A stretch of DNA of 42,167 nucleotides from a virus: positions 1 to 42,167 of IMG/VR virus record IMGVR_UViG_3300018432_000022; one strand, 5' to 3'. The stretch's first letter is position 1, and each line of letters begins with the position of its first letter. Below are positions 10,982 to 34,288 of the stretch, piece by piece. The translations under genes were made by a program, and so were the position numbers. The notes beneath the pieces are model-generated. The model had not been told where the DNA came from and did no database searches. It saw only the letters and a program-made list of their open reading frames with translations.

Positions 10982-10993
10982 CCGGGCGACCTC

Positions 10994-14447: not shown

Positions 14448-15130
14448 ACATCTCCGTCCTCGTGCCGTATCGGCCCGATCACGGGCACCGAGACCGCGCG
14501 TGGGCGTGGATCGAAAGGCGCTGGCGCGCACTACTTCCGGACGTCGAGATCGTGGTGCACCAGGCGCCGGCCGGTGCAACCCCCGCGCAGTTCAATCACC
14601 CGTGGGCGATCAACCGCGCCGCCGAGCGCGCCGCCGGCGACGTGTTCGTCGTCGCCGACGCGGACACCGCCTTCGATCCCGACTGGGTCCGCGCCGCGGC
14701 CGGCCTGGTGGCCGACGGCGACGCGCCCTGGGTGCTGCCGCGCTACTACGACCAGCTGACCGAGCAGTCCACCACGCGTCTGCTGCAAGGTGACCCAGCC
14801 GGACCGATCGGCGCGTACGACGTTGGATGGCGAGGAGACAGCGTTTCCTGGTCGGGCCTGGTCGTCGTGCCGCGAGAGGGCTTTGAAGCGGTCAGTGGCT
14901 ACGACGAGCGCTGGGCGTTCTGGGGCGGCGACGACGTCACGTTCGCGTGCTCGATGAACACGCTGCATGGGCCGGTCGTGCGATGCGATGGCGCCGCGAT
15001 GCACTGCTGGCATCCACGCACCCACCTCGACGCGCAGCCAGGCGACCAGCACGACCTGATGAACGACTACCTGGACGCGAGCGGCAACCCGGAAGCGATG
15101 CGCGCGCTGATCGCAGCGCGGCCCTCATGA
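14444..15130 (+). CDS. GT-A-like glycosyltransferase 4
   Basis: A 228-residue transferase. The opening strand NISVLVPYRPDHGHRDRAW leads to a DxD metal motif, VFVVADADTAFDPDW (about residues 66-80). The C-terminal GYDERWAFWGGDDVTFAC resembles the Gly-rich, acid-containing end of galactosyltransferase-like enzymes. It is clearly related to the transferase at 15897, sharing VPYRP/IPWRP, ADAD, LTEQST/LTEAST and the WGGDD/WGSED end, so the two are probably tandem duplicates. GTG 14444 overlaps the methyltransferase stop. Confidence 0.85.
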   Translation: MNISVLVPYRPDHGHRDRAWAWIERRWRALLPDVEIVVHQAPAGATPAQFNHPWAINRAAERAAGDVFVVADADTAFDPDWVRAAAGLVADGDAPWVLPRYYDQLTEQSTTRLLQGDPAGPIGAYDVGWRGDSVSWSGLVVVPREGFEAVSGYDERWAFWGGDDVTFACSMNTLHGPVVRCDGAAMHCWHPRTHLDAQPGDQHDLMNDYLDASGNPEAMRALIAARPS

Positions 15131-15915
15131 GCATCGTCGCGATCGCTCGCGTCAAGGACGAGGCGGACATCATCGCCGCGACGGTCGCGCACATGCTCAC
15201 GCAGGTCGACCACGTCATCGTCGAGGACAACGCCTCGACTGACGGCACCATCGAGATCCTCGAGCAGCTCGACGTGCAGCTGCAACACGACCCAACGGTC
15301 GGCTACTACCAGTCGGCCGCGATGACACGCCTCGCCGAGCAGGCCGCGGTCGATCACCACGCCGACGTCATCGTCCCGTTCGACGCCGACGAGATCTGGT
15401 ACTCGCCGTTCGGTCGCGTCGCCGATGTCCTCGCCGAGCACGCGCACCTCGTCACGATCTTCACCGCCGAGCTCTACGACCACGTCGCGACCGCCTACGA
15501 CACGCCCGGGCCCGACCCGGTCGCCCGGATCGGCTGGCGTCGCCGCGCGGCGGCGGCGCTGCCGAAGGTCGCCGTCGCAGTCAGGCCCGGCCTCACCATC
15601 CATCAGGGCAACCACGGCGCGAGCATCGCCGGGACGGCGCTGAGCCTCGACGGGCTGCTGGTCGTGCGTCATTTCCCCTACCGCTGCGTGGACCAGTTCG
15701 TCGGCAAGGTCCGCAACGGCGCCGTGGCGTACGCCGCGACCGATCTTCCCGAGGACGCCGGCAAGCACTGGCGCGACTACGGCCGGCTGCTGCACGCGCA
15801 AGGCCCCGGGGCGATCGCCGACGTCTTCCACACCTACTTCTGGTCAGCCGCGCCCGCCGAAGACGACACGTTGATCTTCGACCCCGCACCGACCGGGTGT
15901 CCGTCGCCGTCCTGA
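15127..15915 (+). CDS. GT-A-like glycosyltransferase 5 (GT2)
   Basis: A 262-residue GT2-like enzyme, the longest of the set. The first domain, VAIARVKDEADIIAATVAHM with VIVEDNASTDGT (about residues 34-45), is a textbook GT2 nucleotide-binding pattern. PFDADEIWYS (about 79-88) gives the metal DxD. The second half (HQGNHGASIAG and after) may bind the acceptor. There are no membrane spans, so a soluble enzyme is expected. ATG 15127 overlaps the previous stop (ATGA). Its own end overlaps the next gene by 19 bases. Confidence 0.87.
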   Translation: MSIVAIARVKDEADIIAATVAHMLTQVDHVIVEDNASTDGTIEILEQLDVQLQHDPTVGYYQSAAMTRLAEQAAVDHHADVIVPFDADEIWYSPFGRVADVLAEHAHLVTIFTAELYDHVATAYDTPGPDPVARIGWRRRAAAALPKVAVAVRPGLTIHQGNHGASIAGTALSLDGLLVVRHFPYRCVDQFVGKVRNGAVAYAATDLPEDAGKHWRDYGRLLHAQGPGAIADVFHTYFWSAAPAEDDTLIFDPAPTGCPSPS

Positions 15916-19149: not shown

Positions 19150-22100
19150 TTGACGAAAATCGGTACCGGCTACGTCAGCGTGGACGCCGACCTCACGCCG
19201 TTCTGGCGACAGATTGATCGTGAGCTCGCGGGCGGCGACGCCCGCTTCAAGAAGGCCGGCCGATCCGCCGGAAGAGCGTTCGGCGACGGCTTCAGCGGTG
19301 CGCAGCGCGACGTCACAGGACTGCGGTCCAGCCTCTCGGGGCTGGACCGCGACTCCCGCAAGGCGCAGAAGGGCTTCTCGGGACTCGCCGCTTCGTTCGG
19401 TGGCGGCGGCGACAACGTCAACCGATTCGCCCGCGACCTCGATGACTTCGGCGGCGCCGCCGGCGGCGCCACCGCCACCATCGGCGGCTTCAAGATCGCC
19501 ATCGGCGCGATCATCCCCGTGCTCGTGTCGTTCTCCGGCGCGGCGATCGCGGCCGCGTCATCGCTCGGGCCGCTCATCGGACTTGCCGCGGCGGCCGGCA
19601 ACGGCCTCGCTGCCGCCGCCCAGGGCCTCGGCGTGTTCAAGCTGGCAACCGCCGGCATCTCCGACGCGCTGAAGGAGCAGACGACCAACCAGACGCAGGT
19701 CGCGAGCGCCGCGATCTCCAGCGCCAGCCAGCAGCGCTCGGCCGCCCGAACGATCCAGTCCGCCCAGGACGGTGTTCGCGATGCCCTCGCGGGCGTGCAG
19801 GATTCACACGACGGGGTGCGTGACGCCGCCGAAGCTCTCGCCGACGCTGAGCACGACCTCTCCGATGCGCAGCGTGACGCCGTCGCGGTCCAGAAGAAGC
19901 TGAGCGGCGCGCGGACCCAGGCTCGCCGCGCACTCGTCGACATGCACGCCGCGGTCGCCGAAGCGATCCTCGACGAGCGCACCGCGGTGCTGGAGCTCGG
20001 CGACGCGGCCGAGACGCTCGCCGCGTTGCAGACCGGTCCCACCCAGGACGACCTCGCGGACGGGTCGCGCGCGGTCACCGAGGCGATCCACAACCAGGAG
20101 CAAGCCGTCATCAGCCTGCACCGCGCGCAGGAATCGCTCGACGAGCTCATGGGACGCGCGGCCGGCAACGAGCAGCGCCGCGCGGACGCCGCGGCCGCGC
20201 TGACCCGCGCGCAGGAGCATCAGCGACGCGTCGACGCCGACATCAACGCGACCTACGACGAGCGCACCCGCGCGCTGCAGCTGCTCGCTGACGCGACGAC
20301 CGCTTCGCGGGAGGCCAACGCCGCGGTGGCCGCCTCGAACACCGACAAGGCGCAAGCACTTCAGGACGTCACGAGCGCGCAGGACGCGCTCGTGGCCGCG
20401 CAAGCCAACGCGATCGCGACCCAGAAGGCGCTCGCGGCGCTGCAGGCCGGCCCGAGCGACGACGACAAGCAGCGCGCGCTGCTCGAGCAGGAGCAGGCCG
20501 AGCTTCGCCTCGCCGAGATTCGCCGCGAGCGCATCCGGCTGGAGAAGGACGCGGCCGCGGCCGACAAGGCCGGCGTCGAAGGCTCCCAGGACGTCGTCGA
20601 CGCGAAGGCCGCGATCGTTGCCGCCGACGAGCGGGTGCAGGACGCCGAGCGCGGCGTACGCGACGCGCACCGCGCGGTCACCGACGCGCAGCGCGACGTC
20701 GTCGAAGCTCAGCGCGCCGTTGTCCGCGCCCACCAGGCTCTGTCTGACGCACAGCTCTCCGCGAACGAGTCGATGCTCAGCGGCGCCGCCGCGACCGCGG
20801 CGATGAACGACAAGATGAACGCCCTCCCCGCCTCGACGCAGGCGTTCGTCAAGCAGCTCATCGCGATGAAGCCGCGCCTCGACGAGCTGCGCACCACCGC
20901 AGCCGACGGGTTCTTCCCCGGCGCTACCGCCGGACTGCGCGCAGCGATGGGCAGCTTCACCAGCGTCAACAAGGTGGTCGCGCAGACCTCAAGCGTGCTC
21001 GGTGATGCCGCCCAGAAGAGCGGCGAGCTCGTCGGGAGCCCCGCGTTCGGCCGCGACATCGAGACGATCGGCGGGCGCAACGCCAAGGTCATCGAGACGA
21101 TGGGCGAAGCACTCCGCCACGTCATCAGCGCCCTGCGCCACGTGATGGTCGCCGCGGGCCCGCTCACCCAATGGCTCGCCGACACCGCGAACAAGTGGGC
21201 GCTCAACGCCGCGGAGGCAGCGAAGGCCGGTCGCGAGTCGGGCCGGCTCGCCGCGTTCTTCGAGAAGACCCGCGCGATCGCTGAGCGTCTCGGATCGATC
21301 ATCGGGCACCTCACCAGCGGACTGCTCGGCATCGGCAAGGCCGGCAAGGTCAGCGGCGACCAGATCTGGGCGTCGATCGACCGCGCCGCCGGCCGCTTCG
21401 ACGCGTGGGCGAACAGCGCGAAGGGCCAGACCGCGCTGCACGACTTCTTCCGGCGCTCAAGCGAGCTCGCCGCAGCGCTGCTGCCCGTCATGGGCGGCAT
21501 CACCTCGGCGATCGCGGCGCTCGTGCTCAAGACACTGCCGCTCGCACACGTCCTGAACCTGCTCGGTCCATACGCCGACGAAGCCACCACGGCGTTCATC
21601 GCATACAAGCTCGCGGTCATCGCGACCGGCCTCGCGACGAAGATCGCGACCGGCGCCGTCTGGCTGCACAACGCGGCGCTCGCGGTGCAGTCGGTCAACA
21701 TGGTGCGCTGGCGCATCCTGATCGCTGCGGCCGCCATCCAGACCGGAGTGATGACGGCTGCGCAATGGGCGCTGAACGTCGCGCTGCGCGCCAACCCGAT
21801 CGGGCTCGTCATCACTGCGCTCGTCGCGCTCGTCGCCGGCCTCATCTACGCCTACCACGAGTCCGAGACGTTCCGAGCGATCATCGACGCCGCGTTCAAA
21901 GGCGTCACCATGGCATTCGGCTGGGTTCTGAACGCCGCGCAGAACGTGTTCGGGTGGCTGAAAACCAACTGGCCGCTCGTCCTGGCGATCCTGACCGGCC
22001 CGATCGGCCTCGCCGTGCTCGCGATCGCGCGGCACTGGGACACGATCAAGATCGCCGCGCAGACCGCGTGGAACGCGATCAAGTCCGCGGCCGCGACGAC

Positions 22101-23865
22101 CTGGGACGCGATCAAGACCGCGATCGTCACACCGATCCGCCTCGCTCGCGACATCATCGGCGACGTCGTCACCGGCATCGCCAACCGCCTCGCGAGCGGC
22201 TGGGAAACGATCAAGGGCGCGGCGGGGTCGGCGTGGGCCACCATCCGCGATCTCGTCCTCACTCCGATCCGCGCGGCCCGCGACCTGATCCCCGACGTGA
22301 TGAGCGGACTCGTCAACCGCGTGCAGACGGGCTGGGACACCGTCACCAAGGGCGTCAAGAACTTCGCCGGCGACGTCAAGGACAAGATCGAGGCGGCGTT
22401 CAAGGGCGCCGCGAACCTCGTCATCGGCTTCGTCAACAAGATCATCTGGGCGATCAACAAGATCCCCGGCGTCCCCGAGATCAAGGAGATCGAGAAGCTC
22501 GCCGAGGGCGGCACCTTCGGCGGCGGCACAAGCGGCGGTGGCACGGGCGGCCCGAACGGGACCGGGCGGCTCGCTCGCGGCGGCGCCTTCGGGCGCACCG
22601 GCGGGCTGATCAACCACCCGATCACGCTGATGGGCGAAGAGGCCCCACGCTGGCCGGAGATCGTCATCCCGACGAACCCGGCCTACCGCGACCGCGCTCG
22701 CGCACTGCTCGCACACGTCGCCGGCACGATCGGTTTCGCCAAGGGCGGCCGCTACAGCGTTGACGACATGGCCGCGCTGGCGAAGGGTGTCGGCGCCAGC
22801 GCCCCGCGGATCATGGGCGCAATCGGCATGGCCGAGTCCTCGGGCGACCCGGCTGCACACGGCCCTCCGGATGGCCGCGGCCTCTGGCAGATCGAGTGGC
22901 CGGTGTGGGCCCGCACGATGACCGGCCGTGGCCTGAGCAACGCCTACGACCCCAGCCAGAACGCGCGGATGATGAAGATCGTCCAGGACATGCAGGGCCT
23001 CACGGCCTGGGTCGTCTACAACACCGGCGCGTACAAGCGTTACCTCGACGGCGACGACGGTGGCGGGCTGCTCGGGAAGATCGGCGGCGCGATCAGCTCC
23101 GTTGGCGGGGTGATGGGCGACCTCCTGTCCAAGGGCGCCGGTTTTCTCCTCGACCAGCTGCCCGGCGTCGGCAACCTCCCCGACTGGCTGAAGGGGACGG
23201 GCAAGTACGTCCTCGGCAAGGCCGGCGACTGGATCAAGGACAAGGTCTCCGGGCTCGTCGGTGGTGGCGGGTCCTCCGGCGGCCCGGGCGTCATGACGGG
23301 TACCAACGCGAAGGCCGAGAAGCTCGCGCGGATGTTCGGCGCGACGATCACCAGCGCCTACCGGACCCCGGCGCAGAACGCGGCCGCCAACGGCGCGGCC
23401 GGGTCCAGCCACAAGAAGGGCTCACCGTCGAACCCGGGCGCTCACGACTTCGTGCCGGCCAGCAGCGAGCTGCTCGCCGAGGCGCTGAAGATGGGCGCCA
23501 AGTGGGTCGACAACCACGACTTCGGATCTGGTCTGCACTCCCACGTCTCGTGGTTCAGGCAGGGCGGCCAGTTCGGCGGGCTTCCCCCATACCGCGGCAC
23601 CTTCCACACCGGCGGGATCGTCGGCGGGCCCACCGGCGCCCCCGCGTCGATCACGGCGCTCGGCGGCGAAGCACTCATCCCCGACGGCGTCGGCCTGGTC
23701 GGACAGCTGCAGGACCTCACCGCGGAAATCCGCGCGATGCGCCAGTCAGGGATGCCCGGCGTGATGAACGAGATCACCGACCACGTCCTCGAACGCGGCG
23801 GCCAGCACTCCCACCGCCGGCGCATGACAGCCGGCAACCCCGCGACAACCGCGATCGTCAGCTAA
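19150..23865 (+). CDS. tape measure protein with two wall-lytic domains
   Basis: A 1571-residue protein that sets tail length. The N-terminal third has hydrophobic, Ala/Gly-rich segments (about residues 110-165), then a long Ala/Asp/Gln/Arg coiled-coil region with duplicated motifs. More hydrophobic spans lie near 870-960, then amphipathic repeats. The C-terminal third carries a lytic transglycosylase-like domain (about 1200-1300, with the acid in AESSGD and GLWQIE) and an M15-like peptidase segment (about 1385-1470, with AHDF and HSHVSWF). The domains probably open the wall during DNA entry. The TTG start follows AGGAGG. Confidence 0.9.
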   Translation: MTKIGTGYVSVDADLTPFWRQIDRELAGGDARFKKAGRSAGRAFGDGFSGAQRDVTGLRSSLSGLDRDSRKAQKGFSGLAASFGGGGDNVNRFARDLDDFGGAAGGATATIGGFKIAIGAIIPVLVSFSGAAIAAASSLGPLIGLAAAAGNGLAAAAQGLGVFKLATAGISDALKEQTTNQTQVASAAISSASQQRSAARTIQSAQDGVRDALAGVQDSHDGVRDAAEALADAEHDLSDAQRDAVAVQKKLSGARTQARRALVDMHAAVAEAILDERTAVLELGDAAETLAALQTGPTQDDLADGSRAVTEAIHNQEQAVISLHRAQESLDELMGRAAGNEQRRADAAAALTRAQEHQRRVDADINATYDERTRALQLLADATTASREANAAVAASNTDKAQALQDVTSAQDALVAAQANAIATQKALAALQAGPSDDDKQRALLEQEQAELRLAEIRRERIRLEKDAAAADKAGVEGSQDVVDAKAAIVAADERVQDAERGVRDAHRAVTDAQRDVVEAQRAVVRAHQALSDAQLSANESMLSGAAATAAMNDKMNALPASTQAFVKQLIAMKPRLDELRTTAADGFFPGATAGLRAAMGSFTSVNKVVAQTSSVLGDAAQKSGELVGSPAFGRDIETIGGRNAKVIETMGEALRHVISALRHVMVAAGPLTQWLADTANKWALNAAEAAKAGRESGRLAAFFEKTRAIAERLGSIIGHLTSGLLGIGKAGKVSGDQIWASIDRAAGRFDAWANSAKGQTALHDFFRRSSELAAALLPVMGGITSAIAALVLKTLPLAHVLNLLGPYADEATTAFIAYKLAVIATGLATKIATGAVWLHNAALAVQSVNMVRWRILIAAAAIQTGVMTAAQWALNVALRANPIGLVITALVALVAGLIYAYHESETFRAIIDAAFKGVTMAFGWVLNAAQNVFGWLKTNWPLVLAILTGPIGLAVLAIARHWDTIKIAAQTAWNAIKSAAATTWDAIKTAIVTPIRLARDIIGDVVTGIANRLASGWETIKGAAGSAWATIRDLVLTPIRAARDLIPDVMSGLVNRVQTGWDTVTKGVKNFAGDVKDKIEAAFKGAANLVIGFVNKIIWAINKIPGVPEIKEIEKLAEGGTFGGGTSGGGTGGPNGTGRLARGGAFGRTGGLINHPITLMGEEAPRWPEIVIPTNPAYRDRARALLAHVAGTIGFAKGGRYSVDDMAALAKGVGASAPRIMGAIGMAESSGDPAAHGPPDGRGLWQIEWPVWARTMTGRGLSNAYDPSQNARMMKIVQDMQGLTAWVVYNTGAYKRYLDGDDGGGLLGKIGGAISSVGGVMGDLLSKGAGFLLDQLPGVGNLPDWLKGTGKYVLGKAGDWIKDKVSGLVGGGGSSGGPGVMTGTNAKAEKLARMFGATITSAYRTPAQNAAANGAAGSSHKKGSPSNPGAHDFVPASSELLAEALKMGAKWVDNHDFGSGLHSHVSWFRQGGQFGGLPPYRGTFHTGGIVGGPTGAPASITALGGEALIPDGVGLVGQLQDLTAEIRAMRQSGMPGVMNEITDHVLERGGQHSHRRRMTAGNPATTAIVS

Positions 23866-23879
23866 CGGACGGAGACGGC

Positions 23880-26108
23880 ATGGCACGAGTACAGGTCAGC
23901 GGACAGCCATGGGGAACCCTGTGGGACCGCTCCGGCAACGTGATCCCCGGCCAGCAGGCCGAGATCAACACCCCCATCTACGCCGACGCCACCGGCGAGA
24001 CCGAGCTCGAGCCCAGCCTCTTCGTCGCTGACGTCAACGGCCGGCTCCCCGGATTCGTCGACGAAGGCGACTGGACACTCACCGTTGGGACGCTCGACCT
24101 CCCGGCGCCGGCACTCGGCGGAACCTTGCCGGCCCGCGCTGATGCGGGCGCCACCGCCGCCGCCGCGGTGGTCGCCGAGGCCTTCGCTCGGGCATCCGCC
24201 GTCGCAGCCGAAGCGACTGCGCGAGCATCTGCCGACAACACGATCGCAGCGGCCGCAGCGACTGCCCAGGCGCTTGCGCAATCGGTGGAAAGCGGTAGTG
24301 CCTGGGAGGACCTCACCGAGGACGACGTCCTCACCATCGACGCCGGGATACCGGCGTGGCGACCGCCGTCCGGCGGCGCGTCCGCCGACGCCTCCGCGAC
24401 GGTCAAGGGCCTCACCAAGCTCAGCATCGCGCCCGCGTCGCCGACTGCTCCCATCGCGCTCGGCGCGAACGAGAAGGGCGCGGTCGGCGGTGTGGCAACG
24501 CTCGACGCCGTGGGGCGCGTGCCCGCCGGGCAGATCCCCGTCGTGCGTCCGGTCCCCGCCGTCGGAGCACGGTCGTTTCTGCCCAACGGCGTGAAACTGC
24601 GCGGTGCCAACCTCGTGGTCAAGCCCTCCCATCCGCTGACGAACAGCGGCTTCACGAACCAGGGCGCATGGGCGCGCTACTACGAGGAGTGGGACTGGAC
24701 GGGCTGGATCAAGCCGCAGATCGACCGAGCGATCTACGAGGGCATGAACGGCATCCGCCAGATCGGCGACGTGTTCGGCCTCAAGCTCGGCTACTACAGC
24801 GAAGCGACCTACCTCGCGCACTGGGCGCAGCTCATCGAGTACTGCGCGGCCAACAATCTCTACGTCTACGCGACGGGAGGCAGCGAGCTGCACTTCGGTG
24901 GCGCGTCCTACGCCGAGGTGGCGGCCTACATCGCGGCCTACGCCTCGTTCGTCAATCAGTACCCGAACGTCATCGCGCTCGACGTTCTTCAGGAGATCCC
25001 CGACGCGACCTCGGGCCGGATCGCGAACCTCAAGATCGTGCGCGACGCCTGCAAAGCCGCGAACCCGAACCTGCCGATGACCTTCAGCATGGCGGCCGTC
25101 AACGGCTTCAACGCTGTCGCGACCGTGCAGGCCCTCGATCCGATCGTGGACTTCTTCGATGGGCACGGCTACAGCACCGTGACAGAGCTAAGCCTGAACA
25201 ACATCCCAGGCAGCGGCTACTACACGTCCACCCATCCCAAGCCGCTGATGATCGGTGAGTTTGGCGCCTCTCAGTCTCAGAGTTCTGGGCAGCGTGTTGC
25301 ACATGCCAAGTCGTTCCGCGACTGGTTCGCGAGCCACCCGTCGGTCATCGGATGTCTGTACTGGGCACTCGCGGATCAGGACGTCGCGGGTGCCCCGGCG
25401 AACACATGGGGGCTGTTCACGAACGCTCGGACGACCCTGAACAATGGCGCCGCACTGAGCCTTCCCGCCGCGACAATCACCGTTGTTTCGACGGCCGGCG
25501 CTGGCACGCAGGACAGCCCGGCGTTCCCCTCGTCGGGCACGTTCGAGCTTGGCGGCAACACGATCGCCTACACGGGCAAGACGGCGGTGACGTTCACGGG
25601 ATGCACGGGTGGCGCTGGGTCAGTGCCAGACGGCACTCCGATCTACGTCCGGCGCGCCGATGTCGCCGACGTGCTGCGTACCTTCCCCGAGCGCGTCGCG
25701 CCACTGATCGTTGAGCGCATCCTGGCAACGGACACGGCGATTTCGGCTCCGAACACGGCGACGAACCTGGCCGTCGGCTCCGTGGATCTGCGGTTCCCGA
25801 TCCCGATGCTTTGCGAGATGATCGCGACGGCCGACATCGACATCCTGACGGCTGGCAACGTCTACTCGTTGCAGATCAGCGCGCCGGGCGGTCAGACAAT
25901 GGATGGCACGACCCTGACGGTGCCGAAGGCTGTTGGTGGCGGTGTGGCCTCCAGGATCACGCTGACGACGGCCTATGCCGTCCGGGTCCCGGCGGGCTAT
26001 AACGTTGCCAACTTCACCTGCTACGTAGGGCACGTCTCAGGGTCCGCAGCGGACGCCGTCGCGAAGGCGACGAACACGCGCTGCAAGTGGACGTTGACGC
26101 CGCTCTAG
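23880..26108 (+). CDS. tailspike 1 with GH5-like domain
   Basis: A 742-residue receptor-binding protein. Residues 1-90 form an anchor (MARVQVSGQPWGTLWD, then GFVDEGDWTLTVG) shared with the second spike. An Ala-rich coiled coil follows (about 90-135). Then comes a TIM-barrel glycosidase of clan GH-A type (about 240-510): the acid/base is probably Glu372 in VLQEIPD and the nucleophile Glu460 in LMIGEFGAS. A C-terminal beta domain (about 515-742) may bind host glycans. It is likely to cut a cell-surface polysaccharide. The start ATG 23880 follows GGAG. Confidence 0.85.
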   Translation: MARVQVSGQPWGTLWDRSGNVIPGQQAEINTPIYADATGETELEPSLFVADVNGRLPGFVDEGDWTLTVGTLDLPAPALGGTLPARADAGATAAAAVVAEAFARASAVAAEATARASADNTIAAAAATAQALAQSVESGSAWEDLTEDDVLTIDAGIPAWRPPSGGASADASATVKGLTKLSIAPASPTAPIALGANEKGAVGGVATLDAVGRVPAGQIPVVRPVPAVGARSFLPNGVKLRGANLVVKPSHPLTNSGFTNQGAWARYYEEWDWTGWIKPQIDRAIYEGMNGIRQIGDVFGLKLGYYSEATYLAHWAQLIEYCAANNLYVYATGGSELHFGGASYAEVAAYIAAYASFVNQYPNVIALDVLQEIPDATSGRIANLKIVRDACKAANPNLPMTFSMAAVNGFNAVATVQALDPIVDFFDGHGYSTVTELSLNNIPGSGYYTSTHPKPLMIGEFGASQSQSSGQRVAHAKSFRDWFASHPSVIGCLYWALADQDVAGAPANTWGLFTNARTTLNNGAALSLPAATITVVSTAGAGTQDSPAFPSSGTFELGGNTIAYTGKTAVTFTGCTGGAGSVPDGTPIYVRRADVADVLRTFPERVAPLIVERILATDTAISAPNTATNLAVGSVDLRFPIPMLCEMIATADIDILTAGNVYSLQISAPGGQTMDGTTLTVPKAVGGGVASRITLTTAYAVRVPAGYNVANFTCYVGHVSGSAADAVAKATNTRCKWTLTPL

Positions 26109-26112
26109 AAGC

Positions 26113-26790
26113 TCAGAAATGCGCGTAGAAGTCCCATGCGGGCGCAGCGTCGCTGACCTTCGCGAAGTATCGATCCTCGTTCCGGCGGCCCTGGCATGTG
26201 CGTCTGAGGGTGTCTCGCCTTGAGATTCCGGTGTACGTCGGCTGCAAGCCCACGTTGATCTCGTCGTAGTCGTAGTGCGAGGCCACGAAGCCACACACGC
26301 GATGTACGGCTGGCATGGCGCAGTCGTTGAACGCGACGACGCCGCCAACGTCGAGCATCCTGTTCACGTAGAAGAAGTCCAGCAGCGTGTGGTCGAACGT
26401 GTGGTAGCCGTCGATGTAGGCGAACTGCAACCGCAAGCCGTCGGCCAACAGGCGCGGCAGCTCGGCGTAGTCGAAGCCCGCGACTAGTTCGTGACGGTCG
26501 GCCATTCCTGCGGCCTCAATCGCTCGGCACCCCCGGTCCGCGTAGTGCTCGCGCTGGAAAGGGTCGATCGAGACCAGGTGCACGTCGTCGTTGGCTCCGA
26601 GGATCGCGAGCGCCGAGACTCCGTAGGCCATCCCGATCTCAAGTGCTTGACGGACGGGCCGCGCCTTGATGCACCGCTGAATCGCCTGGGCGTAGCTGAG
26701 CGGGATGTTGAAGTCCAGAGGGACGCTGTCCTCGCCAGCCGTTCGTCCTTCGGCAAAGAGTCGCGCGAGCGCTGGCGGATGAATCGTCAC
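26113..26790 (-). CDS. class I methyltransferase, antiparallel
   Basis: A 225-residue SAM-dependent methyltransferase of the Methyltransf_24 type. Motif I is ALEIGMAYGVSALAIL (about residues 49-64). The acidic end of strand 2 is HLVSIDPFQ (Asp76), and FAYIDGYHTFDHT (about 123-135) and GGVVAFNDCAMPAVH complete the core. Enzymes of this group often methylate sugars or small molecules. It is the only minus-strand gene in the late tail region and has visibly lower G+C than its neighbours. It must use its own promoter, between 26791 and 26947. The start is GTG 26790. It looks like acquired cargo. Confidence 0.85.
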   Translation of the reverse strand: MTIHPPALARLFAEGRTAGEDSVPLDFNIPLSYAQAIQRCIKARPVRQALEIGMAYGVSALAILGANDDVHLVSIDPFQREHYADRGCRAIEAAGMADRHELVAGFDYAELPRLLADGLRLQFAYIDGYHTFDHTLLDFFYVNRMLDVGGVVAFNDCAMPAVHRVCGFVASHYDYDEINVGLQPTYTGISRRDTLRRTCQGRRNEDRYFAKVSDAAPAWDFYAHF

Positions 26791-26947
26791 TCGCCTGACC
26801 CTATCGCCGGATTGCTGCTTTGCGTACGACGCAGCCGATCACCCGTCGAGCCCGGATACGCCCGCCTGCCAGGATTCTGAGCCCATAGAAACGCCCCCGC
26901 GACCGTTGGAGCGGCCCGGGGGCATGGCACAAGGAGCTGCACTCCCG
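26791..26947. promoter_or_regulatory. divergent promoter region with hairpin
   Basis: This 157-base gap separates the leftward methyltransferase from the rightward tyrosine recombinase, so promoters for both should lie here. GCCCCCG (26893-26899) pairs with CGGGGGC (26917-26923). A TAGGGT box ends 7 bases before the methyltransferase GTG on its strand, a possible -10 for leaderless or short-leader transcription. No attachment site could be identified, though the recombinase's own site could be in this gap. Confidence 0.4.
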
Positions 26948-27652
26948 ATGCTCACCGAACGTACCGCGTCCGACCAGGCGCTGCTCGACATCTGCGGGCG
27001 CCGCCGCTCGCCCGCCACCTTCTCGGACTTCCACAAGGGCCGACGCCCCGGCAACGCCGGGCAAACCTATCCGGCCGATCCGCCCAGCATCAGCGAGATC
27101 GTCGCCGTGATGAAGGCGTGCGACGACACGCTCGCCGGACAGCGCCTCCGCGCGCTGATCGTGCTGCTCTGGCGCTCCGGCGTCAGGATCAGCGAAGCGC
27201 TCGCGCTCGGCGAGCAGGACCTCAACGAGCGCGAGAACACCATCCTCGTGCGCAAGGGCAAGGGCGGCAAGCGCCGCATCATCGGCATGGACGACTGGGG
27301 CTGGCAGGAAATCCGGCCCTGGCTCGAGGTCCGCAAGACCCTTCCCGTCGGCACCGTGTTTCCGATCGTGCTCGGCGCGTCCGCCGGGAAGCGGTGGAGC
27401 TCGTCCGGCGCCAGGTCAGCGCTGCGCCACGCGGCCGAGCGCTCCGCGGTCCGCCGGCGCATCAACCCGCACGGCTTCCGTCACGCGCACGCCGTCGAAC
27501 TCGCCCGCGAGGGCATGTCCATCCACCTCATCCAGCGCCAGCTCGGGCACGCCAACCTCGGCGTCACCGCGATCTACCTCGCGTCGATCGGCAACGGCGA
27601 GGTCATCGAAGCGATGAGCGCCCGGCGCGCACCGATGGTGCCCGCCATGTAG
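26948..27652 (+). CDS. tyrosine recombinase, short form
   Basis: A 234-residue tyrosine recombinase. The active-site set is complete: Arg80 in GVRISEALALG, Lys105 in VRKGKGGKRRIIG, His175 and Arg178 in HGFRHAHAV, His201 in QLGHANLG and Tyr210 in VTAIYLASI. The usual N-terminal arm-type DNA-binding domain of phage integrases is missing; only a short core-binding region remains. It may recombine nearby short sites rather than integrate the phage. ATG 26948 with AAGGAG eleven bases upstream is chosen; an ATG at 26924 and a TTG at 26906 are alternatives. It sits between two spike genes. Confidence 0.88.
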   Translation: MLTERTASDQALLDICGRRRSPATFSDFHKGRRPGNAGQTYPADPPSISEIVAVMKACDDTLAGQRLRALIVLLWRSGVRISEALALGEQDLNERENTILVRKGKGGKRRIIGMDDWGWQEIRPWLEVRKTLPVGTVFPIVLGASAGKRWSSSGARSALRHAAERSAVRRRINPHGFRHAHAVELAREGMSIHLIQRQLGHANLGVTAIYLASIGNGEVIEAMSARRAPMVPAM

Positions 27653-27669
27653 CCGAAGGAGATCCCCAT

Positions 27670-29316
27670 ATGGCTCGTGTAGAGGTTCGCTCGCAGTCCT
27701 GGGGCACGCTTTGGGACCTGTACGGCAACGTCCAGGTCGGGCAACTCGCATCCATCGACACCACCGTCTACGCCGCCTCCAGCGGCGGGACGGAGGTCAC
27801 GCCGGGCAACTTCTACACGGGCGGCGACGGAACCCTCCCCGGGTGGGTCGACGAGGGCGACTGGATACTCACGATCGACGACGACGACTACGGCGCGCCT
27901 GCGGTGAGCGGCACCTTGCCGCCGCGAGTGGGTGCGCTGGAAAGCGATCAAGTTGCGCAGGACGTCGAGATCGCCGCGCGGGCCCCGAATGTCGCGCTGC
28001 CGATCCTCACGAAGAACTACGCCATGCCGACCGGCGGGAACGACAGTCCCGCGCTCGCCGACGCGTTTGATGACGCGGAGGCCCGCGGCGGTGACGTCAT
28101 CGAAGCGCGAGCCGGGACACACTCGTTCGCGACGAAGGTCGACCTGCCACCCCGGTGCAGCATCATCGGGGCGGGAGCGAGCACCATCTTCCGCGCCTCG
28201 GGTGACAACTTCATCCTCGGGCTGCGCGGCCTCTCGGGCGGCGGTCCGAGCTACCAGTCGCGGGTCGCGCACGTCTGGTTTCAGGGGCCGGCCGGCGGGC
28301 CGCAGGCAGCGGGCGGCGCACTCGACTTCACCGACGCCGAGTACAACCTGACCGTCGATCACATCTGGCTGGGCGACAACCTCTACTACGGGCTGTTCAT
28401 GGTGCCCGGCCAGCCCGCCGGGATCTGGACGCTCGACAGGGTGCGTTGGAACGGTGTCGCCGGGTGCATGTACGCCATCGAGGTGGGCAGCGGCGCGGAC
28501 CTGCTCAGCGACGTCACCTGCACGCGCTTCGTCGGGACCGGGGCGTCCCCTGCGGACATGGCGCGCTGGCTATTCGTGCGCAACGGCGTGGACACGTTGT
28601 CCTTCGGCGACTCGCTGTTCACGGGCGGCGATCTGGGCGCGGTGATCGGTGTCGATGGCGCGCCGGGCAGCGTGACGAATCCGAAGTTCACAAACTTCGT
28701 GCTCGACACGCTCGACAGCGAGGGCTTCAACATCCAGAAGTGCTCCTCCCTCGACTTGACCGCGTGCGGCATTCAGGGCTGCGGCAACGCCACGCTCCCC
28801 GGCCTGCGAGTCGGCCCGTCGGCCAACAGCGTGCGGGTGCTCGGCGGCAACGTCAACTTCAACGACGGCGACGGCATCGTCATCAACGAAGGGGCCGCGA
28901 ACACGAAGATCCTCGGCACCGACATCCTGAGCAACAACCTGACCAACCAGGCCTTCGGGTCCGGCGTTTCCATCTCAGCCGACGCGTCCGACATCGACAT
29001 CGACCACTGCCCGATCGGCAACGGCGTGCTCACGATGCCCGACGTCGTCGGCAACCCCGGCCCCGCCGGACACCAGAAGTACGGCGTCCTGGTCGCGGGC
29101 GGCGGCGGCGACTACATCCGCCTCGGCCGCTCCAACCGCTACGCAGGCAACGAGAACGCCGCGATCCTCAACGCCGCGACGGGGATCCACAACGAGATCG
29201 ACACGGGCCTCGGCGCGGCGAACCCCGACACGTCGGGCGCGTCGCTCGCGACGCTGGAGACTGAGGTCAACCAGGTCAAGGCGCTTCTGCGGGCGCGTGG
29301 ACTGATGCCGTCGTGA
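27670..29316 (+). CDS. tailspike 2 with beta-helix domain
   Basis: A 548-residue receptor-binding protein. The N-terminal 90 residues (MARVEVRSQSWGTLWD, then GWVDEGDWILTID) are related to those of spike 1, so both probably dock to the same tail site. Residues from about 125 form a right-handed beta-helix-like body of the pectate-lyase type (repeated short strands with VDLPPRCSIIGAGAST and later N/D-rich turns), typical of depolymerase spikes. A short coiled coil ends it (LETEVNQVKALLRARGL). It likely binds or cuts a surface polysaccharide. AGGAG precedes ATG 27670. Confidence 0.85.
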   Translation: MARVEVRSQSWGTLWDLYGNVQVGQLASIDTTVYAASSGGTEVTPGNFYTGGDGTLPGWVDEGDWILTIDDDDYGAPAVSGTLPPRVGALESDQVAQDVEIAARAPNVALPILTKNYAMPTGGNDSPALADAFDDAEARGGDVIEARAGTHSFATKVDLPPRCSIIGAGASTIFRASGDNFILGLRGLSGGGPSYQSRVAHVWFQGPAGGPQAAGGALDFTDAEYNLTVDHIWLGDNLYYGLFMVPGQPAGIWTLDRVRWNGVAGCMYAIEVGSGADLLSDVTCTRFVGTGASPADMARWLFVRNGVDTLSFGDSLFTGGDLGAVIGVDGAPGSVTNPKFTNFVLDTLDSEGFNIQKCSSLDLTACGIQGCGNATLPGLRVGPSANSVRVLGGNVNFNDGDGIVINEGAANTKILGTDILSNNLTNQAFGSGVSISADASDIDIDHCPIGNGVLTMPDVVGNPGPAGHQKYGVLVAGGGGDYIRLGRSNRYAGNENAAILNAATGIHNEIDTGLGAANPDTSGASLATLETEVNQVKALLRARGLMPS

Positions 29317-29354
29317 CGATCGCTTTGCGTCCGATCGAGCAGGAGGTGTAGGCC

Positions 29355-31394
29355 GTGCCGCTCGTCATTCCGACCTTCACGCCATCGACGCGCGAGTCAC
29401 ACGAGTTCGACGGCATCGAGCTCGCTGACGGCATCATCTTCGATCTCGCCGACGCGCCGGTGTTCACGCCGGCGCCGCTGCGCCTGGACTGGATCGGGGG
29501 CATCGACGCCGACGGCAGCGTCCCGCTGGACACCGGTCACAGCGACAACGCGACGCTGACGCTCCCGCTCAGGGTGCAGAAGCAGACCAGCGCCGACAAC
29601 GCGTGGAACAAGCTCGGCGTGATCGTCGCGAAGCTCGAGGCGACCCGTCGCAGCCGCGACGGTCTGCAGCACGTCTGGACGCCGAAGGACGCGACATCCT
29701 CGTGGCTGTTGACGGTCCGCTCCGGTGAGATCGCGGAGTTGCCGATGGCGTCGCGTGGCGACGCGATCGGGTATCTCCTGCGCGCGCCGCGGTTCACGAT
29801 CGTGCTGACGTGCGACCCGTTTCTCTACCGCGACGGCGAGTTGGTGGAGTACGACGAGGTCACGAGCAGCGCGCCCGTCTTCTCGATGCTTCTCGACAAC
29901 GTGCCCGGGCACGTCGATGCCGAGGCGACGATCACGGTCACCGACGACGCCGGCGAGGCGCGACGCCACGTCGAGGTCGGCCTGGGCGAGAACTCCGCCG
30001 CGCCGCTCCTCGTCGACTCCGCGGCCGGCGGGCTGAAGGTCACCGGGTTCGCTGGCGCGCGCACGACGCGGACCGGGTCCTACGGCTCGGATGTCATCCG
30101 AGCGACGCTCGCCACTCAGACCCAAGCGATCTGCGGCACCGGCGAGCTCGGGCACGTCGGCGTGATGCGTCCCAAGGCTCGCATCTGGGCGACGTCGCTG
30201 AACATTCGCCTGCGCCTGGCGTATCGCACCGCCGACGGGTCCTACAGCTACACGCCCTGGGTGGCGCCGGTCGTCGAGGACGCATTCTGCGAAGTCGCGT
30301 TCGGCGTCATCACGGTCGGCGTCGTCCGTGCCGGCGCGCAGCAGTGGGACGCTCGGATCGAGGCCTACAGCGAGACCGCCGGCGACACGGTCGACGTCGA
30401 CTACCTCGAGCCGTTGCCGTCCGAGCGATGGATGGCCGCGCGTGCCGCGTACCAGTACCACTCCGGTGTGCTCACGGCGCTCGACGGCTTCACCGGGCGT
30501 ACCGCGGGCGCCGCGCTCGGCGGAACCGCCGCGCAGATCGGTGGCAACTGGACGACCACGGGAGCGACCACCGACTTCGCGGCCGCCGACGACTACCCCG
30601 CCAGCGGTGAAGAATCGATCGCGCGAGCCACAGTCGACTCATCTGCGCGCCTGGCTGTGATCGGCGGCAGCGTCACCGACTGCGAGGCCAGCATCACCGC
30701 CGGCATCGACGGTGCGACGAGCTTGTCTGAGGACGTCGAGCAGGGCGTCGTCGCCAGGTACGCAAACACGAGCAACTACGTGCGCGCGACGTTCGAGCCC
30801 AACGGCTTCGGCTCCAGGCTCTTTCAGGTGATCGTCCGGATCGCCGGCGCCGAGACGGTCGTGGCAAGCCACGACTACGGCCAGTTCGGAGCCGGCCGCG
30901 ATATCGATGGGACGACTCGTCTGATCGTTCGTTCCGACGGCACCTTCATCGCAACACGCTTTCTCAGCTCCAGTGAGCAGTCCCACGAGCTGCTTGGAGA
31001 GCACAGCTCCCTCAGCACCGGGGGTGTCCTGGAGAGCGGCAAGGCCGGGATCTACGATCGCGACGGCGGAGGAAACGGTACGAGGCACTACCGCGACTTC
31101 TACGCCGCGACACCCCCCGCCGAGCCGATCGCGATCTACCCCGACCGCGCGATCGAGTTTCGCCACGACTCGACCGAACGCGAGAGCGCCGACGGGTCGC
31201 TGTGGGGCAAGCCGAAGCTGACGCCCGGTGGGCGCGCACTGGTCCCGTGCGCCGGAAGCGAGGGCCGCGCCTACCGGCTGTGGTGCAAGGCGCGGCGCAA
31301 CGACATCGCGACGGTGGCGGATGCGCACATCGCGGACGCCACGAAGCTGAAGGTGTCACTGAGGCCGCGCTACCGCATGCCGACCAGCCCATGA
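29355..31394 (+). CDS. distal tail/minor tail protein
   Basis: A 679-residue tail protein in the place of the Dit or first minor tail protein of long-tailed phages. The N-terminal part (about residues 1-170) has the mixed-beta look of a tail-tip ring domain. The C-terminal two thirds is beta-rich, and the segment with EDVEQGVVARYANTSNYVRA (about 455-475) resembles a LamG-like carbohydrate-binding fold. It probably links the tube to the baseplate. GTG 29355 follows AGGAGG. Its stop overlaps the next ATG (ATGA). Confidence 0.75.
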   Translation: MPLVIPTFTPSTRESHEFDGIELADGIIFDLADAPVFTPAPLRLDWIGGIDADGSVPLDTGHSDNATLTLPLRVQKQTSADNAWNKLGVIVAKLEATRRSRDGLQHVWTPKDATSSWLLTVRSGEIAELPMASRGDAIGYLLRAPRFTIVLTCDPFLYRDGELVEYDEVTSSAPVFSMLLDNVPGHVDAEATITVTDDAGEARRHVEVGLGENSAAPLLVDSAAGGLKVTGFAGARTTRTGSYGSDVIRATLATQTQAICGTGELGHVGVMRPKARIWATSLNIRLRLAYRTADGSYSYTPWVAPVVEDAFCEVAFGVITVGVVRAGAQQWDARIEAYSETAGDTVDVDYLEPLPSERWMAARAAYQYHSGVLTALDGFTGRTAGAALGGTAAQIGGNWTTTGATTDFAAADDYPASGEESIARATVDSSARLAVIGGSVTDCEASITAGIDGATSLSEDVEQGVVARYANTSNYVRATFEPNGFGSRLFQVIVRIAGAETVVASHDYGQFGAGRDIDGTTRLIVRSDGTFIATRFLSSSEQSHELLGEHSSLSTGGVLESGKAGIYDRDGGGNGTRHYRDFYAATPPAEPIAIYPDRAIEFRHDSTERESADGSLWGKPKLTPGGRALVPCAGSEGRAYRLWCKARRNDIATVADAHIADATKLKVSLRPRYRMPTSP

Positions 31395-33010
31395 GTGACA
31401 GGCCACCGCTCGAGCTGCACGCCGAGATCGACACAGCCGACGGCCTCGAGCAATACCGCTGGGACGCCAACGCGCGCGACCCTGAGGACCGGCCGCTGGC
31501 GATCTCGTGCGCATCCACCCTCATGAACGGCTACGCCTCCGGCGGATGCTCGCTCGCGCGGCGCATCGCACGCGGCTACCCCGACCTCGGGCTCTACGAC
31601 ACGATCCGGTTCGTCGGAGTCGACGGCCGCGTCGCCTACGAGGGCCGCGGATCCCGGTATCCCCGAGAGGCAGGCACCCAGCACCGCATCACCGCGGAGG
31701 CCGTCGGGTGGATGGCACACGCCCGCGACAAGCCCATCCTGTTTCTCGGCGTCGACCAGGACATGGCGGCCTGGGTACAGCCGACGGCGGCCCGGCAGAG
31801 CGGACTACAAGTCGGCGGGTTCGCGGTGAAGGGGCCCGGCACCGTGATGGACGACAAGGTGCTCAGCCAATCCTTCGACGGTGCCTGGATCTTCGGTGAG
31901 CTGCCCATCTGCGAGGCCTGGTATGACGCCGGCCCCGGCCAGTACATCGGCAGCGTGTACTACGCCTGGGAACGCGGTCTCAACGTCACCGCGAGCGGCG
32001 ACGGCTGGGTCTGGGCAGTCGGCGGTGCGGCCACCCGGGAATTCGCCGACCCCGCGGGAACCCCAAGCCTCCAGGCCGCTGGCCCCGACGGTGGCAGATT
32101 CGACGTCAGCGTCGCCCATGACCACCGCTATGGCTGGGTCACCCTCTACAACGCTGCCGCCGGCGGAACCCCGGAGATGCAGTACAACGTCGACTGGACG
32201 GCCCTGCAGGCGATCGGACGCCACGACCTCCCGCTACAGGGCGCCGGGCCCTACGGGCTGTTGGGCTCGGACATCATCAAGCGCACGGCAGCGCTCGCCG
32301 CCCCCCTGCTCGATACCAGCGGCGTTCTCGCGACATCGCACGCGATCGACCAGTTCGTGGTGCGCGACCCGACGGATGCCTACGACATCTGGCTGATGAC
32401 CAACGCCTACGAGCGGTGGAACATCGCTGTGTGGGACAGCAAGCGGCTCGTCTACGAGCCGCTCCCCGACATCACGCAGGTGCAGGAAGCCGACTGGGTG
32501 CTGCGCACCGACCACCGCAACAACCTGCGCCGCAGCTACGACGGACCCACCACCGACGGCGCGAAGAACGGGGTCATCGTCCGCTTCCAGAACATCCTCA
32601 CCGGCGAAGCCTCCATGATCGACCCGACGACCAATCCCGAGCTCGCCGCCACCGACAGCCGCCTCGCCGCCAACCGTGCCGGGATCCAGGACTGGGAACC
32701 GATCCAGCTGCCCAACCCGAACACCCCCGCCGGCGCCGCCAAGATCGCCGCTGCCGCACTCACTGAGTTCAACCGCCAGCGCACCCCAGGGCGCTTCACC
32801 ATCACTGGGCACATCCGCGACGCCGCGGAGAACTGGCACCAGGGCTGGGTGACCCGCGCCGCCCAGACGGTCCTGGTCGAGGAAGACGAGGACGATCCGA
32901 TCCGCGTCATCTACGAGGCCTCGTGGAACCAGGACTCCCGGGAGCTGACGATCAACGCCGACGCCGCCTCCAAGACGATCGACGCGATCGTCGCTGATAT
33001 GGGCGTCTAG
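31391..33010 (+). CDS. baseplate or minor tail protein
   Basis: A 539-residue tail protein following the distal tail gene, in the position of a Tal-like or second minor tail protein. The N-terminal LELHAEIDTADGLEQYRWD and the LARRIARGYPDLGLYDTIRF segment fit an insertion domain of tail tip proteins. The rest looks globular, with no lytic motif. ATG 31391 shares bases with the previous stop. Its TAG at 33008-33010 overlaps the stop of the converging minus-strand secreted gene. Confidence 0.75.
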   Translation: MSDRPPLELHAEIDTADGLEQYRWDANARDPEDRPLAISCASTLMNGYASGGCSLARRIARGYPDLGLYDTIRFVGVDGRVAYEGRGSRYPREAGTQHRITAEAVGWMAHARDKPILFLGVDQDMAAWVQPTAARQSGLQVGGFAVKGPGTVMDDKVLSQSFDGAWIFGELPICEAWYDAGPGQYIGSVYYAWERGLNVTASGDGWVWAVGGAATREFADPAGTPSLQAAGPDGGRFDVSVAHDHRYGWVTLYNAAAGGTPEMQYNVDWTALQAIGRHDLPLQGAGPYGLLGSDIIKRTAALAAPLLDTSGVLATSHAIDQFVVRDPTDAYDIWLMTNAYERWNIAVWDSKRLVYEPLPDITQVQEADWVLRTDHRNNLRRSYDGPTTDGAKNGVIVRFQNILTGEASMIDPTTNPELAATDSRLAANRAGIQDWEPIQLPNPNTPAGAAKIAAAALTEFNRQRTPGRFTITGHIRDAAENWHQGWVTRAAQTVLVEEDEDDPIRVIYEASWNQDSRELTINADAASKTIDAIVADMGV

Positions 33011-33228
33011 CGCAACCGAGTAGCGAGCACGCCCTGCGTGATCGCGATGATCCGGTCAGCCGACATGATCCGGCTGCGCGGGCACGGGCTGACATCACGC
33101 CCGTACTCGTCGATCACCAGGATGCGAGTGCAGGGGCGCTGGTCCGGGCTGGTCGGCATCGCAGCCGATGCCGTGCCCGGCACGACAAGCGCGAGTAGCA
33201 GCAGGGCGAGCGGTAGGCGTCGTCTCAT
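33007..33228 (-). CDS. small secreted protein
   Basis: A 73-residue protein with a signal peptide: basic MRRR, a hydrophobic [10 protein letters not shown] core and a likely cut after ASA near residue 25. The mature part of about 48 residues has two Cys that could form a disulfide. It has no recognised family. Being on the minus strand against the late genes, it probably has its own promoter and may be expressed in the lysogen. A similar gene, also minus and secreted, lies at 36278-36688. ATG 33228 is preferred to an ATG eight codons upstream because the signal peptide starts there. Confidence 0.6.
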
Positions 33229-33371
33229 CGCCCCACCCTCGCACGCCACCACCGGGCGCCGCTCGAATTTGCAGAAAGTGTGGGGTTATGCGCCCCGTAG
33301 CGCCTCACTCGAGGCCTGTCCCGCCCGCCGCCACGAGAGGCCGGTCCCGTGCCGCTACCCCCGCTCTCACC

Positions 33372-33755
33372 ATGACCAACGACGAGTGGAGCCCTCGCCT
33401 CGAGGATCGCTTCAAGCACGTCGACAAGCAGCTCGAAGAGCTTCAGCTCGACGTGCGCACATTCGCTCCCGTCGTCGGCCAGGTCGTCGGCCTGGAAGCC
33501 GACGTCGAGGGAGTCCAGCGAGCGCTCACCGACGTGCGCGGCGACCTTCGCGACCTGCAACGCGAATCCGCCGCCGCGGTCCGGCGCGCCGAGGACGCAG
33601 CAGCAGACGCGATCCGTCGCGCGGACTCCACCGCAAACGACGTCATCCGCTCCGGTCGCACCGAGAACCTCAAGCTCATCGGGATCGTGCTCGGAACGTT
33701 CACCACAGTCGTCGTCGGTATCGCGACGGCCCTTCTCACGGGGAAGATCGGATGA
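33372..33755 (+). CDS. holin-like coiled-coil membrane protein
   Basis: A 127-residue protein with a charged, heptad-rich N-terminal two thirds ([20 protein letters not shown] and after) and one C-terminal membrane span ([20 protein letters not shown], about residues 101-120). This layout resembles XhlA-like hemolysin/holin proteins. It opens the lysis cassette. The start is uncertain: ATG 33372 lacks a good ribosome site, and an ATG at 33288 would add a low-complexity leader. The stop overlaps the next ATG in GATGA. Confidence 0.65.
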
Positions 33756-34288
33756 GCTCACGCACCGCCAGAATCATCGCCGTACTGCTCGGGCTGCTGC
33801 TCGGCGTCGCGTTTCTCATCGCCGGCGCCGCGTACCGCGAGACCGTGGGTCTGCAGAAGGACCGAGTGCGCTCCAACGCCGACATCCAGCGCATCGCCCG
33901 CCAGGTATTCCCGTCCGAGCGCGAAGGCCGCCGGCAGCTGCTCGACGCGGTCCGCATGTGCGCCGCCGACGCCGAATGCACCGCGCTCTTCCGCGACCTC
34001 GCGCCGCGCGGCATGGCCGGACCACAGGGCGCCCGCGGGCGCGCCGGCGCACCAGGCCGCACGGGGCGCACCGGCGCCCGCGGCTGGCGCGGCCGCACCG
34101 GTATCCCGGGGCCCATGGGACCGGCGGGTCCGCCGGGCGCGCGCGGACCAGCCGGCCGCGGCGCGCCGGGCGCCCCGGGTCAGCCCGGACCGCAGGGACC
34201 GCCTGGCTTGACGCCACCCGTCGGTGACGTCATCGCGCAGCTCTGCCGCGAGGCACCCCTCCTCGCGCGCCTTCTCACCTGTCGCTGA
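33752..34288 (+). CDS. membrane-anchored collagen-like protein
   Basis: A 178-residue protein with an N-terminal membrane span (about residues 8-26, [20 protein letters not shown]), a charged linker to residue 86, then a collagen-like block (87-152). The block has 16 Gly-X-Y triplets, a two-residue break (GR at 135-136) and five more triplets ([15 protein letters not shown]). A short C-terminal part follows with one Cys at each end. It is coupled to the holin-like gene and lies just before the M15 endolysin. A trimeric rod in the envelope is expected; the role in lysis or exclusion is unknown. Confidence 0.75.

Follow-up and report, generated by a model that had tools for sequence, protein, structure and literature searches.

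The DNA analysed here (the window) is a stretch of 42,167 nucleotides from IMG/VR virus record IMGVR_UViG_3300018432_000022, in which two tail spike genes are located between the tape measure gene and a Dit-like gene (Table 1). The names Dit and Tal were given by gene order, neither protein having a convincing family match. Both spike reading frames were found where the initial annotation had placed them, and their position between the tape measure and the distal tail gene was likewise confirmed. The two spike genes are separated by a methyltransferase gene and a tyrosine recombinase gene, neither of which had been mentioned in that annotation.

Table 1. Features of the spike locus and related genes in the window.
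Feature	Position	Strand	Remarks
Serine recombinase	2561-3283		
Tape measure protein	19150..23865	+	Left neighbour of the spike slot; PHROGs tape measure 1.2e-74; 53% identical in G001
Spike 1	23880..26108	+	742 aa; anchor and weakly GH5-like body
Anchor 1	23880..24149	+	Residues 1-90 of spike 1; 57% identity to the G001 anchor (90 columns)
5' box of spike 1, TGGAAAGCGGTAGTGCCTGGGA	24286..24307	+	Anchor/body border; 22-nt identity with the decoration gene of G047
Methyltransferase (Methyltransf_24)	26113..26790	-	225 aa; Pfam 3.7e-14; inside GC-deviant segment
Partial 3' box, GCTTTGCGT	26817..26825	+	Left edge of the recombinase unit; aligns with the exact box in G047
Conserved non-coding block	26863..26947	+	Upstream of the recombinase; blastn match with G047 begins upstream of the gene
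Small tyrosine recombinase	26948..27652	+	234 aa; Phage_integrase 1.4e-29
Spike 2	27670..29316	+	548 aa; anchor and weakly beta-helix-like body
Anchor 2	27670..27939	+	Residues 1-90 of spike 2; homologous to anchor 1 and the G001 anchor
5' box of spike 2, GCTGGAAAGCGATC	27936..27949	+	11/14 inverted copy of the 3' box
3' box, GATCGCTTTGCGTC	29318..29331	+	14 nt; directly after the spike 2 stop codon
Dit-like gene	29355..31394	+	Flanks the spike slot on the right; 63% identity to the G001 protein over 409 aa
Tal-like tail gene	31391..33010	+	64% identical in G001

The N-terminal anchors of the two spikes can be aligned without gaps, and 49 of their 90 residues are identical, which is above the earlier estimate of roughly 40. 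The local alignment score was 259, compared to a mean of 31 for shuffled sequences (SD 6, maximum 66, n = 2000). The bodies, which had been described as unrelated, indeed align at the level of shuffled sequences (score 46 vs. 45 ± 6, 200 shuffles), and by blastp nothing was found to match between the two spikes outside the anchor region. A recent duplication of the anchor was rejected on the basis of amino acid identities of 0.55 between the two anchors and of 0.59 and 0.60 to the anchor of the related genome G001. The GH5 and beta-helix assignments of the bodies are weak: the best matches were Cellulase/GH5 with E = 0.02 (0.0019 for the isolated part) for spike 1 and Beta_helix with E = 0.0076 (0.005) for spike 2, both below the curated cut-off. 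Spike 1 contains LQEIPD at residue 370 and IGEFGAS at residue 458, which we take to resemble the acid/base and nucleophile motifs of GH5 enzymes. The structure models obtained for the anchor (three-row alignment, pLDDT 53, all-beta trace) and for the GH5 part of spike 1 (pLDDT 40) are poor, and sequence comparison with the PDB returned nothing for the spikes and chance-level matches for the anchor (best E 0.061). Neither a Pfam nor a PHROGs family of the T4gp10-like branching domain type was detected in the N-terminal part of spike 1, and no notable exact repeats able to drive deletion of a spike were present. Since a homologous anchor is carried by two unrelated bodies, a common docking fold is likely as judged from the sequences, and because the anchors are homologous both spikes would probably be able to dock at one tail site. 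A broader range of polysaccharides as a result of two putative enzyme bodies is plausible.

The initial annotation had named a relative with just one spike as a test, and such a relative was found in G001. This genome is colinear with the window from the terminase through the Tal-like gene and contains one anchored spike in exactly the slot between the tape measure and Dit-like genes. The slot position had been read as the mark of an inserted island; since the single spike of G001 occupies the identical position, this reading is not supported and the slot looks like the usual spike position of the lineage. The added part in the window looks to be one spike together with the methyltransferase and the recombinase. 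G001 was the sole match in scans with the anchor alignment and in scans with the Tal-like alignment. For 80 terminase-related loci, 46 records were searched and 34, mainly short contigs, were dropped; G001 was the only one of the 46 to contain the anchor, and likewise the only one with the Tal-like gene. Scans of viral contigs with single proteins (spike 1, spike 2, portal and Dit) yielded no relatives, and scans of bacterial genome contigs with the anchor and Dit alignments yielded none either. Anchor 1, spike 2 and Dit all failed to match any phage record by tblastn, and spike 1 was matched over 76 residues only.

The recombinase unit (26863-27652) is shared with G047, a phage unrelated to the window phage, with 76% identity over 792 bases by blastn and 80% identity of the recombinase protein over 210 aa. 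Among 36 viral records a close copy was present in G047 only, and the gene is absent from G001. The G047 copy immediately follows a GDSL head-decoration gene (phrog_9703, 5.8e-17; PF13472, 4.5e-12) between the major capsid and head-tail adaptor genes. Placed in a tail operon in the window and in a head operon in G047, the recombinase is preceded by an adhesin-type gene in both. A search of phages revealed no DNA resembling the recombinase; the best phage protein matches have about 26-31% identity, and the G047 copy has plasmid matches of 30-35% among the matches listed. An integron-type integrase was rejected, the two model scores of 74.6 and 52.5 bits being under the cut-offs of 265 and 435, and a structured RNA in the upstream block was rejected as well, folding being no better than for shuffles (z -0.2 to -0.9). 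An alternative start of the recombinase is possible at 26924. A weaker recombinase match (33%) was observed in G039, with no recognisable adhesin-like neighbour.

Short DNA boxes were identified at the borders of the bodies. The 3' box is present as an exact copy at the stop codon of spike 2, of the G001 spike and of the G047 decoration gene, and it is the sole 14-mer common to the ORF-end windows of the three phages (255, 304 and 149 windows, some of those from G001 being duplicated); 20000 random real triples reached 9 nt or less. At the anchor/body border, the 22-nt identity between spike 1 and the G047 decoration gene was reached by 0 of 200 synonymous-codon shuffles, and the 15 nt common to spike 2 and the decoration gene by 2 of 200. 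The 5' box of G001 is degenerate, and no pair involving the G001 spike has a long common string there. Spike 1 is without an exact 3' box; the methyltransferase gene intervenes and the site at 26817 matches 9 nt only. The window and G047 differ by 1 nt in the spacing from the 3' box site to the conserved GAGCCCATAG.

Base composition also changes near the boxes. The segment 24575-26840, which comprises the spike 1 body and the methyltransferase, has a GC content of 0.644 vs. 0.694, and deviant segments near boxes were found in G001 (L002 10480-12655) and G047 (L089 4760-5870) as well. Three bodies shift from their own genomes to 63-66% GC roughly between the boxes, and the left GC edges are offset inwards from the 5' boxes by some 60-290 nt; the GC content of the spike 2 body is ordinary (0.686). 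The fit of segment and boxes was equalled by 0, 0 and 3 of 60 block shuffles for the window, G001 and G047, respectively, the match in G047 being restricted to a narrower region (2355-3165 comes out as the best segment when 1500-12600 is considered).

We give about even chances to the reading that bodies move as box-bounded cassettes onto varied anchors, with the recombinase as the best candidate agent. The lineage would have a single spike slot, bounded by the tape measure and Dit genes, which here carries two spikes with homologous anchors. A body cassette would start at the short box on the anchor/body border and end at or close behind the second box at the stop codon, and bodies could be joined to different anchors, even to the head-decoration protein of an unrelated phage. 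The recombinase would move behind adhesin genes, bringing along the block upstream of it and a ribosome-binding site of its own; its part in body exchange is likely but unproven. In the window, the deviant spike 1 body, the methyltransferase and the recombinase would represent such material standing beside spike 2. Against cassettes speak the presence of the recombinase at two loci only, the 3' box of G001 without any recombinase, the missing exact 3' box of spike 1, the degenerate 5' box of G001, the restricted GC match in G047, the offset of the left GC edges and the ordinary GC content of the spike 2 body; the evidence comprises two recombinase loci and four adhesins, and no recombination event was seen. 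The bolder version is unlikely, namely a natural recombinase-mediated cassette exchange for virion adhesins in which inverted sites at the anchor/body border and the stop codon allow unrelated phages in a co-infection to trade bodies, and tail spikes to trade them with head decorations, extra genes such as the methyltransferase sometimes being carried along.

Ordinary modular evolution, in which homologous or illegitimate recombination takes place at conserved short linkers and the recombinase is a chance passenger behind an adhesin gene in two phages, is somewhat unlikely. Swapping of anchors and bodies that needs no dedicated enzyme is well documented, as far as the account in PMC6872550 extends, and would suit the boxes of G001 and the location of the 5' box in a coding linker (ESG motif). 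However, when the 33-aa linker was compared with 50,697 phage records by tblastn (E <= 10), nothing matched, so at this sensitivity it does not qualify as a common linker of phages. Such recombination alone would account neither for an exact 14-nt stop-codon box in unrelated phages nor for the position of the recombinase, which follows an adhesin-type gene in both carriers, in a head operon in one and in a tail operon in the other.

The boxes resemble each other better in inverted orientation: the reverse complement of the 3' box fits the four 5' boxes at 9, 11, 9 and 9 of 14 positions, compared to 6-7 in direct orientation, with a combined P of 6e-5 that is too optimistic because the four 5' boxes are related. 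This similarity, the orientation of the methyltransferase against the operon and the matches of the recombinase to FimB/FimE-like tyrosine-type DNA invertase models (69.8 bits vs. a cut-off of 222 and 49.1 vs. 221, spanning most of the 198-200-residue models yet below cut-off) would fit a Rin- or Gin-like phase-variation switch that flips bodies between inverted boxes. Such a switch is nevertheless improbable and an inversion shufflon was rejected, as all four flipped segments yield fusions of just 147-152 residues, which are truncated anchors, and neither silent C-terminal cassettes nor an inverted allele were found. Equally doubtful is that the recombinase serves lysogeny as an integrase and the upstream block contains its attachment site, the second spike being a plain duplicate or lateral gain: in both the window and G047 no other gene matches Phage_integrase, but the recombinase is short and lacks the N-terminal core-binding region that we take to be typical of such enzymes, it lies inside the structural operons of both phages, the serine recombinase of the window could serve integration, and this reading would leave unexplained why the box also occurs in G001, where the gene is absent.

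Precise body swaps at anchor borders are customarily explained by generic recombination. If body movement in cassettes is true, a defined box pair with a linked recombinase, common to unrelated phages in which it accompanies a tail spike in one and a head decoration in the other, would provide a specific, testable mechanism for body exchange, and the boxes would serve as a DNA signature for detecting exchangeable adhesin bodies in sequence collections. No earlier report of two anchored spikes combined with boxes and a recombinase was found in searches of the open-access literature.

In the R64-type shufflon (Rci, PilV) and in integrons, C-terminal segments or gene cassettes that can be exchanged at short sites lie next to a tyrosine recombinase. 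The window resembles these systems in having a tyrosine recombinase by putatively exchangeable parts with short sites, but an inverted cassette array is missing and no recombinase match of the integron type exceeds the cut-off. Distantly related Alteromonas phages have tail-fibre modules in common, according to the relevant part of PMC10579305; host-recognition parts common across phage families are also seen here, but instead of whole fibre modules a body is placed on unrelated anchors, with boxes and recombinase. Tailspikes of Klebsiella phages and coliphages (T7/K1F, G7C, KP32) are described in the corresponding sections of PMC6872550 as a conserved N-terminal anchor with unrelated enzymatic bodies, with one or two spikes among relatives, and the spikes of the window and G001, with putative enzyme bodies, follow the same pattern. 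In the double-RBP systems described there, the second spike docks on the branching domain of the first via a short conserved peptide, whereas here the anchor is complete in both spikes, and their genes have a recombinase gene in between. The Rin shufflon of Bifidobacterium prophages, as outlined in PMC6109161, comprises a tyrosine recombinase beside receptor-binding protein genes, between the tape measure and later tail genes, and a constant N-terminus with unrelated C-termini and short asymmetric sites of 11 bp. The window shares the gene order, the constant N-terminus with unrelated C-termini and, as candidates, the short asymmetric sites with this outline; Rin is known from actinobacterial phages, and the annotated relatives of the window portal, among the matches listed, are actinophages. 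Flanking sites of the Rin type may have a counterpart in the boxes, with an inverted similarity of only 9-11 of 14. Compared to Rin as outlined there, the window has no array of silent C-termini and flipped bodies yield no long ORF; it contains two complete genes, every body having its own anchor and start codon, and its unit is common to the head-decoration gene of an unrelated phage.

The phage carries the gene series terminase, portal, protease, scaffold, capsid, tail tube and tape measure, and its portal is about 30% identical to those of actinophages (Streptomyces, Arthrobacter, Mycobacterium and others, among the annotated relatives in the matches listed). The anchors of its two spikes (residues 1-90) were aligned without gaps with 49 of 90 residues identical and a score of 259 versus at most 66 in 2000 shuffles; they are thus homologous, at a somewhat higher count than the roughly 40 residues of the initial annotation, and the bodies were confirmed as unrelated. 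The GH5 and beta-helix labels are sub-threshold matches; 'LQEIPD' and 'IGEFGAS' of spike 1 resemble what we take to be GH5 catalytic motifs. Two spikes plausibly widen the range of glycans attacked.

Features of the window and of the related locus L002
Feature	Record	Position	Strand	Remarks
Virus record	window			42,167 bases
Serine recombinase	window	2561-3283	+	240 aa; Resolvase 1.8e-39; near left end
Glycosyltransferase-like gene	window	11470-12108	+	PHROGs; within head/tail structural region
Glycosyltransferase-like gene	window	15127-15915	+	PHROGs; within head/tail structural region
Spike 1	window	23880-26108		anchor, weakly GH5-like body
Methyltransferase	window	26113-26790	-	PF13578, 3.7e-14; between spikes
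Small tyrosine recombinase	window	between spikes		PF00589, 1.4e-29
Spike 2	window	27670-29316		anchor, weakly beta-helix-like body
Collagen-like repeat protein	window	33038-34288	+	Collagen 7.1e-09; downstream of Tal-like gene
HTH gene	window	39709-40569		replication-type, beyond skew change
IstB/DnaC-like gene	window	40720-41532		replication-type, beyond skew change
Dit-like gene	G001 (L002)	12759-14776		split over two frames near 14000

A search with the anchor alignment led to a single relative, L002, which belongs to the 60-kb phage record G001. The homologues of window genes in G001 run from the terminase through to the Tal-like gene (most matches 34-66% identical). There a single anchored spike (905 aa) stands between the tape measure and the Dit-like gene, whose frame split may reflect misassembly or a genuine break. 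A profile search of G001 and 45 further terminase-related records gave exactly one anchor, that of G001, which supplies the one-spike relative sought in the initial annotation. The spike position is therefore normal for this tail type, and the earlier reading of an inserted island was not upheld. Relative to G001, the additions are the second spike, the methyltransferase and the recombinase; neither a tyrosine recombinase nor a detectable homologue of the methyltransferase was found in G001. The glycosyltransferase-like genes are kept there (63% and 52% identity, in table order), and collagen-like genes occur at the corresponding place. The GC skew of the window switches sign at about 36.5-37 kb.

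By scanning viral contigs with the recombinase, an 80% identical copy was found in G047, the record of an unrelated phage that differs from the window in portal, capsid protein, tail tube and tape measure and has an S78 protease; at its locus L089 only the recombinase strongly matched window genes, with one other marginal match (E = 0.009). This copy lies directly 3′ of a gene matching head-decoration family phrog_9703 (5.8e-17), whose product also matches GDSL hydrolase (4.5e-12); the capsid and head-tail adaptor genes lie on either side. The DNA similarity (26863-27652, 76%) extends beyond the recombinase gene by about 85 bases on its upstream side, and the next gene also has a similar ribosome-binding region; thus, one recombinase unit stands behind a tail spike in the window phage and behind a head decoration in G047. 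The serine recombinase, a second site-specific recombinase of the window phage, was found in neither G001 nor G047.

The string TGATCGCTTTGCGTC overlaps the stop codon of both the G047 decoration gene and the G001 spike, and the same string, GATCGCTTTGCGTC, lies one base past that of spike 2. This 14-nt 3′ box has one exact copy in the window; a search of 50 viral records that allowed one mismatch found it in two, G047 and G001, with one copy each. No other 14-mer occurs in the ORF-end windows of every one of the three phages (255, 304 and 149 compared, the G001 set containing duplicates); in 20,000 random real triples the longest common string was at most 9 nt. Spike 1 lacks an exact 3′ box; a partial one, GCTTTGCGT (9-nt match), lies beyond the methyltransferase at 26817 and is in register with that of G047. 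At the anchor/body border, 22 identical nt are shared by spike 1 and the G047 gene (reached by 0/200 synonymous shuffles) and 15 nt by spike 2 and that gene (2/200); G001 has only a degenerate 5′ box, and pairs with its spike gave no long-string signal. The 5′ boxes match the reverse complement of the 3′ box at 9, 11, 9 and 9 of 14 positions versus 6-7 in direct orientation; as the four 5′ boxes are related to one another, the combined P of 6e-5 is optimistic.

The most GC-deviant segments were 24575-26840 in the window (0.644 versus 0.694; boxes 24286/26817), 10480-12655 in L002 (0.657 versus 0.607; boxes 10419/12717) and 4760-5870 in L089 (0.632 versus 0.701; boxes 4566/5835, the best segment of a wider G047 stretch lying elsewhere, at 2355-3165), and 0, 0 and 3 of 60 block shuffles, respectively, fitted the boxes equally well. 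GC rises within the segment where the genome is GC-poorer and falls where it is GC-richer, as a shared source of the bodies would predict; the body of spike 2, at 0.686, shows no deviation. Since the window segment includes the methyltransferase, this gene, whose orientation opposes the operon, looks like part of a cassette.

We think that adhesin bodies move as box-bounded cassettes, with the recombinase behind them as the likely, putative agent and perhaps double exchange at inverted sites as the route; of the two adhesins of the window phage, which have the same type of anchor, one would then be resident and the other added. This pattern-based reading draws on two recombinase loci and four adhesins in three phages. 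Its strongest rival is generic recombination, with the recombinase as a passenger. An inversion switch is unlikely, because flipped bodies would give fusions of 147-152 residues. Such a flip would also make the truncated anchor frame stop in a GTGA that overlaps the methyltransferase start codon, probably a coincidence. A recent tandem copy was ruled out, because the window anchors (amino-acid identity 0.55) are no closer to each other than to the G001 anchor (0.59 and 0.60).

Among published systems, the nearest found for the proposed cassettes is that of bifidobacterial prophages, the Rin shufflon, which combines a tyrosine recombinase, a constant N-terminus, variable C-termini and 11-bp sites (PMC6109161); two of its defining features, silent C-terminal segments and productive inversion, are absent in the window phage. 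For other phages, both anchor-plus-body modularity and the use of single or double spikes are established (PMC6872550).
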